The notes below the pieces were generated by a model. The model saw only the letters and a list, made by a program, of their open reading frames with translations. It did no database searches and was not told the origin of the DNA. This document shows, in pieces, positions 45,158 through 49,116 of a stretch of DNA of 64,000 bases. The DNA is from Chytridium lagenaria. Lineage: Eukaryota; Chytridiomycota; Chytridiomycetes; Chytridiales; Chytridiaceae. The number at the start of each line of letters is the position of its first letter. The stretch's first letter is position 1. Both the position numbers and the translations under genes were made by a program. The DNA lies in assembly GCA_025449115.1 (NCBI GenBank), contig JAHLKC010000131.1, positions 52,444 through 116,443 on the forward strand. The letters are read 5' to 3'.

Positions 45158-47384
45158 CACCCTTAACGGACGCTTTTGACGACGACGTGAACTTAACCTT
45201 GTTCTTTGTCACTGAGATGATTGCCAACCCACATCTAAAGACTTTAGAGGACGTGCATGTTCATTTCTGTAGTATAGCCGCTGGTGAGAAACCATCTGTT
45301 GGCGAGAAGTCTGCTAAGTCTCCTCGGAAACGTAAGTTCAAAAAGCCTCTTAATAAGGTCGAGGAAACTATAAACCAGGTCGGTGAACCCGATAGTGATG
45401 AAATTAGGGATCCTATGATGGATGTTCCTGAACACATGCCCATGGTTAACCTTACCACGGAGGACGAAGGCTACACCTCTGGCGATAACTTCCCAAGCGC
45501 TGAGGGACCACCCGAGCAGCTTTTGTCCGGTGATGATATGAAGTCACTTGAGGAATCTATCATAAACAACGAAGCTGAGATTCGTTTTCAATCCAATGAT
45601 TATACCAGTGAGGACCGTATGGACTATCTTAAGAACATGACGCCAATAACTGATGAAGAACTTCTGAAGAAGTTCGATTATGACCACATCAAGGATAAAG
45701 ATATGGTGGACCGTTTAAAGCAATTCCTTGTGAAAGGAAGGAACGCTGATGTATTCCGCGAGTATGTAGTTACTGGAACGAAGTCTCCCGGTGTTCACAC
45801 CGTTGAGCTCATGCCTTTCTCAAGGCCTCCCAACGCACCCCCCTACCCAGTAGGTCTTGAGCGCGCTAAGATCATTCGCGACCACGTCGCTGAAATGTTA
45901 AAGACAGGAATCATTCGTGAGTCCCGTTCACCCTTTGCCTCACCTGTGTGTCTCGCGAAGAAGAAGGACGGGACAATGCGCTTCTGTACCGACTTTCGTC
46001 GACTCAACACGGTGACGATTAAGGATAAATATCCTTTACCACGAATCGACGAGATGTTTGACCGGCTGGCCGGAAGCACCGTCTTTTCTTCACTTGATCT
46101 GCTCTCAGGATTCTGGCAGATCCCCGTTAACCTGAAGACCGTCATAAAACGGCCTTTGTAACCCCTGATGGTCTTTACGAATACGACGTTATGCCTTTTG
46201 GCTTAACGAATAGCCCTCCTACTTTCCAACGAAGTATGGACACAGTTCTTGCAGGCCTGAAATGGATGCACTGCATGGTGTATATCGATGATATCATCAT
46301 TTTCTCGAAAGATGTTGATTCACATCTTGAAAGCCTTCAACTCGTAATTGATAGACTACTTGAGCATAACTTAAAGCTCAAGCCAAAGAAATGCCAATTC
46401 TTCTTTAACGTTCTCCCTTTCTTGGGACACGTCGTCTCTAAGGACGGTATAAAACCAGATCCAGAGAAGTTAAAGAAACTGGACGAGTGGCCTACTCCAA
46501 AGTCGTTGCTTGATATTCAACGGTTCCTTGGTTTTACCAACTACTTTCGTCGCTTTGTACCAAGCTTCTCTGACGTTGCTCATCCCTTGACTAACTTAAT
46601 GCAGAAGGACACTCCTTTTGTCTGGACGGACTCTTGCGAGTCTTCGTTCCGTCGACTCATCGCTATACTGAAAGCCGAGGTCCAGTTAACGAATCCGTTA
46701 CCTAGCGATGAGTTTATCATTTCTTGTGACGCGTCTAAGTATGGCATTGGTGCCGCATTGTTTGTGAAGCGCGATGGTGAGCTTTTCCCTGTCGCGTTTG
46801 CTTCTCGCACGCTTAACAAAGCTGAACAAAACTACTCCAACACTGACCGTGAGGGACTAGCTGTCGTGTGGTCTGCAAACTTATTTGAGCCCTACACATG
46901 GCATAAGCCATATCGCATTGAGACAGATCATTCTGCCTTAATACCCTTGTTCTCTAAAGGAGACTTACGCGGCCGCTTTGCTCGCTGGGCATACGCCCTT
47001 CAAGATCACGAAATTGAGTTGGTTCATACACCCGGTAAGAGCCAGGCTGTTGCTGATGCGTTGTCTCGTATCTTTAAACCCAAGGCGGATGTCGAAACAT
47101 CCTCTGACGATACAGTAGTTACTGTTCCAGAGAATATCGCTAAAGTACATATAGGCAAAGACTCTCGTTCTAAGAACAAGACCATGCTCCAGAGTGAGTT
47201 TATTCATGAAAAAGATGTTCTCACCGCGGTTGTTGAAACCACATTACCACGAGAAGATGCTCTCGTCCCTGTAGAGCCAGCCATTGTAATGGATGTGCTC
47301 CTACAAAACATCTCTACCATCACTCTGCCGTTTGCGCTGCCGGACAGCGTCGACCGTGTATGGGTTTTGAGAAGTTTCCCGTAA
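45091..47384 (+). CDS. Element A reverse transcriptase and RNase H (one frameshift)
   Basis: 45091-46161 carries an acidic linker and the RT fingers: VELMPFSRPPNAPPYPVG, SPFASPVCLAKKKDGTMRFC and VFSSLDLLSGFWQIPV. One missing base near 46148 shifts the frame; the palm resumes with YEYDVMPFGLTNSPPTFQR and the catalytic MVYIDDIIIFSKD (about 46278-46310). RNase H follows with FIISCDASKYGIGAALF, NTDREGLAVVW, RIETDHSALI and ends VADALSRIFKP near 47085. The frame continues through VHIGKDSRSKNKTMLQ, shared with B, to a TAA at 47382. The next ATG, of ORF-X, is in the same frame 13 bases later. Confidence 0.9.
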
Positions 47385-47396
47385 ATAAATTACGTT

Positions 47397-48218
47397 ATGT
47401 CTTCACGGTTAGTGAAGCTTTATCTACCAATACGCTCCCTAGAGGTCGGTTATGATTATACCGTGTATAATGTACTGCAGTTACAGGACATCTTGGTCCC
47501 TGAAGACATACGCTGTTTCTTCACTATCACCGATCGTCATTTGTGGACTTATGTTCCTTCAAGTGCCTTGGAAGAGTTCCCTTTGAGGCATTCAAAGACA
47601 GTAATGGCCCGCCCTCCCTCCCATAAAGGTGACGGTGTTGGTCTTGCTGACGCGCCGCCCTCTCAAGTGTGGGTGACCGTGGTTGAAAGTCATATTCCCT
47701 CAAGAGAGAATCTGAGTCAAGGTTTACAATATAGTAAAGGGTCGGACGTATTCGTAAGAATTACACCAGAACCATTGAAAGACATTATCACTGGTACTAA
47801 GGACTATGTCTATTATCCTGCGAGACTCGATGGCCTCAAGAGAATTTGGATGGTCAATGTCAACGATGACAGAGATCCCCTGGGCAGTGAGCCTCATAGA
47901 AAGCACGGCGCAGTTACTCACGTCATGCACGTCTCTAAACCAATTCCCCCAGGAACTAGGGAGTTTCCTGATCCTATGTCCATGGGATTAGAAGAGTATA
48001 TGCGGAAGTATTACGCTTATCGTATTTATGATATCCGTGAACTTACGTATCCTATCCCTGAACGGAAAGAGCGTAAGACGGATCCATTATCCTTATTCGA
48101 ATTGTATGGAGTTAATAGTACTACGCACTTTGCGAGAGTACCTGAGAATATGGTCAAAGACTGTAAACCAAATACGTTGAAGGAACTCAGACCTTCACCG
48201 AAAGTGAAATCTCATTGA
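47397..48218 (+). CDS. Element A ORF-X: conserved accessory protein of unknown function
   Basis: A 273-codon open frame between RNase H and the endonuclease. It is in frame with RNase H and separated from it by a single TAA, so it may have been part of the polyprotein. Conserved blocks shared with B: DVFVRITPEPLKDI, THVMHVSKPIPPG, YYAYRIYDIRELTYPI, SLFELYGVNSTTHFARVPENM. It is rich in beta-prone residues, without obvious zinc, membrane or catalytic signatures. Its stop overlaps the endonuclease frame (TTGATTGA at 48215-48222). No known family recognised. Retention in two families next to the endonuclease suggests a joint role. Confidence 0.75.
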   Translation: MSSRLVKLYLPIRSLEVGYDYTVYNVLQLQDILVPEDIRCFFTITDRHLWTYVPSSALEEFPLRHSKTVMARPPSHKGDGVGLADAPPSQVWVTVVESHIPSRENLSQGLQYSKGSDVFVRITPEPLKDIITGTKDYVYYPARLDGLKRIWMVNVNDDRDPLGSEPHRKHGAVTHVMHVSKPIPPGTREFPDPMSMGLEEYMRKYYAYRIYDIRELTYPIPERKERKTDPLSLFELYGVNSTTHFARVPENMVKDCKPNTLKELRPSPKVKSH

Positions 48219-49116
48219 TTGAAGATTCTAAGCTACGAATAGTAAGCTGGAATGTTAATGGACTCCATCGCTTAGCTATGGTCCTCTATGGACAGAAGTT
48301 GGAAGGTGACGAAGCCAACCCCGCAGAATGCCTTGCTAGATATTTTGAGAAGCAAGGTTATCAGATAGTATGTCTCCAGGAGACACGCATTAGTCATAAA
48401 CGACAGCTTTTCTGGGATCAGTTGATGAACCTAGAAGATTGGAATGTGCACGCCGATGACATGAGAACTGGCTATGCCGGTGTTGCTACGTTTGTCCGTA
48501 AAGGACTTCCGTCATAGAGAAAGAAGCCGTAGAGGTATCTGTCCTCGTGAAGATACTCCAGATGATGAATGGAGCCAAGGAGGTGAAGGTCGTTGCGTGA
48601 CTATTTCTCTACCCGGCTTGTATGTTGCCAACGTCTACGTTCCCAACGGCTCGAGAAGTCAAGCCAGACAGGATTATAAGATTAGATTCCTCTCTAAGTT
48701 TAAAAGCTTCGTTGATGAGATGAAACATAGAAAGAGTGTTGTGGTTGCTGGCGACTTCAATGTAGCTCGTTCTTCTTTGACGTACGCTTTCCTATGCGTA
48801 TGGTTGTTATTCTGGCTTCGAGCAAGAAGAAGTTAAGCTCTTTAACGAGTTGTACTTTAATAAGCAGCACGGCTTCATTGACGGTTTCCGACATTGCCAC
48901 CGCACGACCCGGTTATACCTGGCATGACCCGCAAGCTAGACACCAGAGCTTATGGAGAGTTGATTATATATTGTTGATCCTAGCCTTCACGCTAGATGGA
49001 CTGTCCACCATAGATATATGTCTGGACTTAGCGATCATCAACTCGTGGAGTTGACGATAGAACAAGAAGATCCATTTCTTGTTGAGACTGAAACGTTGAT
49101 GACTTACCAGTATTAA
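48215..49116 (+). CDS. Element A ExoIII/APE-type endonuclease (motifs complete, several frame changes)
   Basis: Motifs in order: LRIVSWNVNGLHR (metal-binding Asn), IVCLQETRIS (metal-binding Glu), GYAGVATFVRKG, VANVYVPNGSRS, VVVAGDFNVARS (catalytic Asp and Asn), PGYTWHDPQ, LWRVDYIL and SGLSDHQLVELTI (Asp-His pair). The series and total length (about 290 residues) match the exonuclease-endonuclease-phosphatase fold of ExoIII/APE1 and LINE endonucleases. WRVDYIL resembles the cellular APE form WR.DY. The frame changes near 48515, 48800, 48900 and 48980, yet every catalytic block is kept. No ATG opens the frame, so it may be expressed from ORF-X by frameshifting. Predicted activity: nicking DNA at abasic or target sites. 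It lies directly before the integrase. Confidence 0.85.

Follow-up and report, generated by a model that had tools for sequence, protein, structure and literature searches.

A Ty3 retrotransposon clade of Chytridium lagenaria with an ExoIII/APE1-type nuclease domain between RNase H and integrase

A nuclease-bearing Ty3 clade

A clade of chromodomain-bearing Ty3 long terminal repeat (LTR) retrotransposons in the chytrid Chytridium lagenaria carries, as a fixed feature, a nuclease domain of the ExoIII/APE1 type between RNase H and integrase. The starting point was a stretch of 64,000 nucleotides, here called the window (GenBank assembly GCA_025449115.1, contig JAHLKC010000131.1, positions 52,444 to 116,443 of the forward strand), which contains one such Ty3 element, termed element A. 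An interpretation made from the letters of the window alone (the sequence-only reading) had proposed a Ty3 family with its own domain of the ExoIII/APE type, placed between RNase H and integrase. This proposal is supported by the presence of the domain in 31 of 33 copies of the clade and by reading frames that are open through it.

The nuclease domain in element A

The Pfam domains of element A follow each other on the plus strand in the order RVT_1, RT_RNaseH, Exo_endo_phos, rve and Chromo. All motifs named in the sequence-only reading were recovered: VADALSR of RNase H at 47049-47069, followed by SWNVNG near 48245, LQET, YVPNG, GDFN, WRVDY and SDHQLV, which ends near 49053. A further nuclease motif, GYAGV, is also present. 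The domain, a member of the endonuclease/exonuclease/phosphatase (EEP) family PF03372, was located at ~48233..49056 (plus strand) by tblastn with the sibling copy L017. In the window it is frameshifted and spread across several frames. The frame piece 48167-48517 matches Exo_endo_phos with 30.4 bits (E 4e-7), which exceeds the cut-off of 24.5 bits; the piece 48465-48836 stays under it (19.3 bits, E 1e-3), and, taken alone, the third piece (48731-49054) matches no Pfam family. The pieces are placed in order between RT_RNaseH and rve. The family assignment made by eye was thus borne out by the profile search, as PF03372 is matched in the window and in open copies.

Only part of the stretch originally singled out (47085..49116) is nuclease. 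Its first portion, 47085..48232 (plus strand), is a linker for which Pfam gave no family above the cut-off and for which no convincing solved relative was found by sequence (best E 1.6); model confidence is low there. The linker is 53% identical between two subfamilies, and the distance from the RNase H motif to the start of the nuclease varies among lineages from 41 to 399 amino acids (aa).

Distribution in the genome

The genome (42 Mb, 356 contigs) was searched with PF03372 and with three segments taken from a single open copy: reverse transcriptase plus RNase H (RT-RH), EEP, and integrase (IN). These searches score the best candidates only, and matches were merged by position. For the copy count, rows were entered manually, one for each copy, if they reached the end of RNase H (query residue at least 344); the 3'-most fragment was used for split copies, rows stopping short (e.g. 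C156) were excluded, and three rows of a second lineage (C11, C137 and C95) were added though they end earlier. Nuclease positions were taken from the PF03372 and EEP searches, integrase positions partly from the matches listed only.

In the main clade (RT at least 51% identical, RNase H end present), 31 of the 33 copies carry a nuclease that follows RNase H and precedes any integrase match, and in at least 28 of the 31 an integrase match comes after it. The other two copies, C115 and C273, have neither a nuclease nor an integrase match; none of the 33 rows shows an integrase without an intervening nuclease. The order of RNase H, endonuclease and integrase seen in the window thus recurs throughout the clade, and family copies that lack the domain next to an integrase, as would betray an insertion into element A, were not among these rows. 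Occurrence in 31 of 33 copies is more than chance, and the nuclease is a constant trait of the clade. A second Ty3 lineage (lineage B, RT 31-33% identical) has the nuclease in six rows. In 13 of the 18 remaining Ty3 rows an integrase match lies 282-663 bases past the RNase H end, as measured between match ends, and no nuclease intervenes; the last five have neither match.

Open frames point in the same direction. Two copies in this genome and one database protein join reverse transcriptase, RNase H, nuclease and integrase in a single open frame. The longest frame, L024 (2573 aa), reads RT-RH-EEP-H2C2-rve-chromo, its chromodomain scoring 20.7 bits, below the cut-off; L009 (1604 aa) has RT-RH-EEP-H2C2-rve. 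The order EEP-H2C2-rve is found in L014 (1145 aa), L018 (717 aa) and L017 (613 aa, beginning at a contig end), and RT-RH-EEP in L010 (1308 aa) and L022 (1001 aa). The integrase families PF17921 (H2C2) and PF00665 (core) were found in L024, L009, L014, L017 and L018.

It is hardly credible, then, that a LINE (long interspersed nuclear element) or another nuclease gene inserted by chance into a single copy. EEP-bearing LINEs do exist in this genome (L026-L028), and the approximately unbiased (AU) test does not reject a grouping with them (p 0.10 and 0.40), but the other copies refute the idea for this locus: the position is the same in 31 of 33 copies, frames are open through RNase H, EEP and integrase, no LINE reverse transcriptase adjoins, and the ratio of nonsynonymous to synonymous change (dN/dS) is low. 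A nested LINE fragment was rejected on the first of these grounds.

The sibling copy C234 (locus L017), open over nuclease, H2C2 and rve, is 98% identical to the window over 48313-49440. The two differ by 12 mismatches and 11 single-base gaps in 1138 aligned positions. With single-base gaps nearly matching the mismatches in number, some of the damage in the window may be assembly error; the balance of gaps and mismatches resembles consensus errors more than normal decay.

Class of the nuclease

Catalytic residues were tabulated in 41 rows from the loci, part of 132 nuclease matches (L032 yielded no row). The residues N, E, Y, D, N, D, D and H are mostly kept, which together with the PF03372 match is what characterizes ExoIII (Xth)/APE1 enzymes. 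The letters K/E at D308/H309 in the lineage B row from C11 are an artefact of local alignment; another alignment shows SDH. The pocket for the abasic site, whose positions we take to be F/W266 and W/F280 of APE1, reads W/W in lineage A, the main lineage, and in P0002, and W/F in lineage B, so that it is aromatic in both lineages. The row of a third lineage, C (C6), has C/C and lacks an aromatic pocket. In three LINE rows, position 280 is S. An AlphaFold model matches the ExoIII/APE1 fold, as expected from the sequence-only reading, the listed fold rows spanning only model residues 387-682. Judged by its residues, the nuclease belongs to the ExoIII/APE1 repair class, not to the class of the LINEs of the host.

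Selection on the nuclease

Synonymous change is unsaturated in four EEP pairs, whose dN/dS was 0.05, 0.07, 0.07 and 0.12, values given without a significance test. All three RT-RH pairs and six IN pairs are saturated, and dN/dS therefore cannot compare the strength of selection across EEP, RT-RH and IN. By identity, the nuclease evolves faster than RT-RH: C198 and C324 share 73% in the nuclease and 85% in RT-RH, C198 and C95 39% and 71%. In the measurable pairs the low ratios indicate purifying selection. The nuclease thus looks preserved by selection, which suggests a working role in the life cycle of the element. A structural or regulatory remnant, a spacer without nuclease activity, would agree with the decay of several copies, including both in the window; the retained catalytic residues and the dN/dS of 0.05-0.12 in the measurable pairs make it very improbable.

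Mode of insertion

For the LTR families of both Ty3 elements in the window, we inspected the flanks of four LTR pairs and 16 single LTRs in addition to the two window elements. Six cases were uninformative, one flank lying within an element (C168, C61, C71, C298, C86 and C53). A 4-bp duplication was found in 14 of the 16 informative insertions. In C76 and C141 the LTR end was shifted by 1-3 bases to obtain it; for C148 the script reported a 6-bp match, and the standard ends give AAAT. The flanks of C111 and C180 are mirror images and probably represent one insertion, which changes the count to 13 of 15. No duplication was seen for a 16.2-kb pair on C105 and for C41, where a rare alternative entry or a later rearrangement is possible. 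The integrase motifs D, D and E are present in L024, P0002 and L017; in C95 the search pattern did not pick up the second of them. The 4-bp duplications and the retained motifs indicate insertion by integrase in most cases examined.

The sequence-only reading had suggested a dual entry route. In such a route the nuclease would nick target DNA and start reverse transcription on the spot, as in LINEs, alongside insertion by integrase. It is established that nucleases of the same superfamily do so in LINEs. Here, however, 4-bp duplications adjoin the LTR ends in 14 of 16 cases, the integrase motifs are kept and the pocket is of the ExoIII, not the LINE type, so that this route is disfavoured and in our estimate very unlikely.

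Possible role of the nuclease

Our preferred interpretation, for and against which we see about equal weight, is that the chromodomain Ty3 clade has captured an ExoIII/APE1 nuclease in Pol that is packaged and acts on the cDNA. The enzyme would enter the particle together with Pol. On the cDNA it might cut at abasic sites as an apurinic/apyrimidinic (AP) endonuclease, and remove blocked, mismatched or extra 3' ends as a 3' phosphodiesterase and 3'-5' exonuclease. Reverse transcription of a long genome (~16 kb) could thereby be completed, and the cleaned 3' ends would become usable by integrase, which itself would perform the insertion. A repair function agrees with the class of the enzyme, its location within Pol and the integrase-type insertion sites, and we infer cDNA repair or end cleaning as a plausible role.

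Several observations weigh against this interpretation. Both window copies have a wrong letter at one catalytic position, as is typical of decayed copies. W280 is not universal in the class, being L in one ExoIII row (P0011) and C in the lineage C row, and the loop around M270 of APE1 is shortened in the Ty3 domain, so that recognition of AP sites may differ. The AlphaFold model has a mean predicted local distance difference test score (pLDDT) of 56.6, with ten-residue blocks of 53 to 91 over the nuclease, and its input alignment held bacterial ExoIII sequences. Near-identical copies (C11/C137 and C63/C115) suggest duplicated or haplotype contigs, so that not every copy in the counts is an independent one. 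The same holds for the four measurable EEP pairs, of which three come from a set of three related copies; saturation affects 17 of the 21 EEP pairs. Outside the genome, a 3585-aa protein was the only match among 1283 candidates of similar length, another length range gave seven matches among 2338 candidates, none of them Ty3, and one other organism only was named, through a 235-aa partial protein.

Trimming rather than repair of the cDNA is an alternative that we consider improbable: the nuclease would remove remnants of RNA primers or extra nucleotides at LTR 3' ends, partnering 3' processing by integrase. ExoIII-class enzymes are 3'-5' exonucleases, and ExoIII has an RNase H-like activity; in both lineages, moreover, the nuclease precedes the zinc finger of integrase. 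Against trimming, the 13 Ty3 copies of the same genome without EEP between RT-RH and IN indicate that Ty3 can do without it. Less probable still is that the nuclease is directed at host or other nucleic acids, such as competing cDNA or host defence, instead of the element's own cDNA. Its presence in two Ty3 lineages would fit gain in an arms race equally well as repair, but it is encoded within Pol and not as a separate gene.

The repair interpretation can be extended tentatively, as an idea that is probably wrong in this specific form: the elements would carry their own nuclease for 3'-end repair and proofreading, which each of two Ty3 lineages acquired independently at the same site in Pol and which in the main lineage is tied to the unusually large size of ~16 kb. 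The ground for this is the size of the clade. Compared with typical Ty3 elements it is large, about 16 kb; two LTR pairs with duplications (C76 and C56), of the family of the second Ty3 element in the window, span 16.1 kb. Proofreading would make the nuclease a retrotransposon counterpart of the exonuclease with which large RNA viruses copy long genomes faithfully. An enzyme class that serves the entry of LINEs would then maintain cDNA here.

Origin of the nuclease

In the EEP tree (35 rows), the domains of lineages A and C, P0002 and a Dinochytrium protein form one clade of 10 rows with support 100/99. The lineage B domain is found elsewhere on the ExoIII/APE side, in a position that is not firm, and the AU test does not reject uniting all Ty3 domains in a single clade (p 0.337). 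The RT tree (26 rows) splits the nuclease-bearing elements into two clades, and a single one is rejected (AU p 0.002); the nuclease-free C160 groups with lineage B (100/99). The tree program gave a warning about long branches. The most economical reading has either two gains or a single gain followed by transfer of the module between Ty3 lineages; as only the RT tree rejects a single clade, one capture with later module exchange is a possible alternative to two.

The phylogeny does not single out a donor. The best EEP tree sets the LINE rows apart (96/94), yet joining the Ty3 domains with those of LINEs is not rejected (AU p 0.101 for lineage A, 0.401 for lineage B). A LINE origin would run against the sequence evidence even so. 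Descent of the main lineage from eukaryotic APE1 is weakly rejected (AU p 0.024). The APE1-like gene of the host (L060) seems to be split by introns within the domain, with two separate exon matches whose frames were read by eye; its tree row was assembled from the exons and is partial. One scan of viral contigs found no relative that would point to a viral source.

Relatives outside the genome

The 3585-aa protein (JGI source) has the same domains; its nuclease is 41% identical and starts 66 residues past the RNase H motif. The 235-aa partial protein of the chytrid Dinochytrium kinnereticum matches linker and nuclease with 67% identity over 37% of the query, a match that by itself makes a chytrid host probable. 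Among the best 120 of 1217 protein matches it is the sole close one, the other 119 being 25-34% identical. Four proteins of 933-934 aa (P0123-P0126) combine an ExoIII-like domain, N-terminal in P0123, with group II intron-type RT/maturase Pfam domains; on these domain matches they are another pairing of a reverse transcriptase with ExoIII.

No Ty3 element with an EEP domain was named in the open literature covered (subscription papers, preprints and Repbase were outside its scope), and an earlier description is possible. The sections covered attribute the domain to LINEs (PMC4112212, PMC10799480) and to Helentrons (PMC6431247), and the label EN is used for LINEs in a figure legend (PMC5348765).

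Structure of element A and its surroundings

Element A is bounded by a 5' LTR at 29125..30094 and a 3' LTR at 58448..59417 (plus strand), each 970 bp long with TG...CA ends and 99.2% identical to each other. The target duplication CTTA lies outside both (29121-29124 and 59418-59421). A Gag-like reading frame at 41739..42983 (plus) reaches no Pfam cut-off (Ty3_capsid, E 0.13). Reverse transcriptase and RNase H (45010..47384, plus) are encoded in overlapping frames, 45010-46161 and 46131-47384, with matches to RVT_1, RT_RNaseH (E 2e-29 in the second frame) and RT_RNaseH_2. A DGGAN motif upstream of RT may be that of the protease; a Pfam scan of 44234-45157 gave no match to an aspartic protease.

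The region before and into the H2C2 zinc finger of integrase (49361..49495, plus) is severed by a Copia insertion, and the remaining H2C2 and the catalytic core follow at 55914..56537 (plus; rve at 55935-56537, E 1.5e-13), both parts being located by tblastn with L017. A chromodomain lies downstream at 57904..58014 (plus; PF00385, E 4.3e-6, 27.0 bits, cut-off 25.1). Several hundred residues (56538-57900) separate core and chromodomain, likewise in L024; a Pfam scan of the piece 57037-58332 gave no match in the stretch between them. The order RT-RH-IN, LTRs with target duplication, H2C2 with core, and the chromodomain identify element A as a Ty3/gypsy chromovirus.

Without its two nested insertions, both of later date, element A measures ~16.6 kb, provided that 30095-34013 belongs to it; the sequence after the LTR is similar in the two Ty3 elements of the window. 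The second of these, at 34014..41265 on the minus strand, is a shorter derivative from the same nuclease-bearing clade, with LTRs 99.4% identical and the duplication AGTA. Relative to L014 it has an internal deletion. Linker and nuclease region are retained, the latter at 35389..36078 (minus; G000:C131:87832-88521, 43% identity) with two stops and disrupted frames; no RT or integrase row was found for it among the matches listed in the genome searches. Another short derivative, at C49:46679-53887, likewise has no RT or IN match among the matches listed. Both measure ~7.2 kb between LTR ends and have a 4-bp duplication each. The two look as if mobilised in trans.

The Ty1/Copia element nested inside the integrase zinc finger of element A (49496..55913, minus) has LTRs 99.7% identical and the 5-bp duplication CTGGT; its exact ends and duplication were read by eye from the flanking sequence. 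Outside element A, 13318-24974 contains inverted and direct repeats with arms of up to 348 nt, 89-100% alike, clustered around 13.3-14.6, 19-20.7 and 23.2-25 kb. Telomere-type TTAGGG repeats occupy 63731-64000, the end of the window and of contig C131, so that the element cluster looks subtelomeric.

Comparison with known systems

In the textbook picture, LTR retrotransposons and retroviruses reverse transcribe without proofreading and use integrase as their DNA cutter. This picture is broken by a conserved repair-class nuclease that two Ty3 lineages of a single genome carry within Pol, and the layout offers a direct route to the question of what limits cDNA quality and element length. With Ty3/gypsy chromoviruses (Metaviridae) the clade of element A shares TG...CA LTRs, the order RT-RH-IN, H2C2 and core, the chromodomain and short target duplications; it differs in the extra ExoIII/APE1 domain between RNase H and integrase and in its size of ~16 kb. 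The domain shares catalytic residues, the aromatic pocket and, as modelled, the fold with the AP endonucleases ExoIII (Xth) and APE1, from which it differs by its place within a retrotransposon polyprotein and by the shortened loop around M270.

The APE-type endonuclease of LINEs is likewise retrotransposon-borne and of the PF03372 superfamily. It precedes RT (L026, L027 and L028), whereas the Ty3 domain follows RT-RH and precedes integrase; the LINE domain row that was tried had no significant relative in the PDB. LINEs with dual endonucleases, reportedly described by Kojima and Fujiwara in 2005, also unite two DNA-cutting domains in one retroelement. They combine APE with a restriction-like nuclease, have no integrase and are not LTR elements.

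The dUTPase of retroviruses and fungal LTR elements is, like the Ty3 nuclease, a DNA-hygiene enzyme added to pol, although the enzyme and its reaction are different. In non-primate lentiviruses it occupies the same slot, between RNase H and integrase. For fungal and rotifer LTR elements, the section covered places dUTPase between protease and RT (PMC6431247). AlkB-carrying Gypsy elements of orchids are described, in the part covered, as another case of a captured enzyme kept over time (PMC9289625), in contrast a separate open reading frame for an RNA demethylase in plants. Helentrons with a captured AP-endonuclease-like domain, as given in the section cited (PMC6431247), differ from element A in being rolling-circle DNA transposons. 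The Ty3 clade of C. lagenaria is thus a further mobile-element setting, beyond LINEs and Helentrons, that has recruited this nuclease superfamily.

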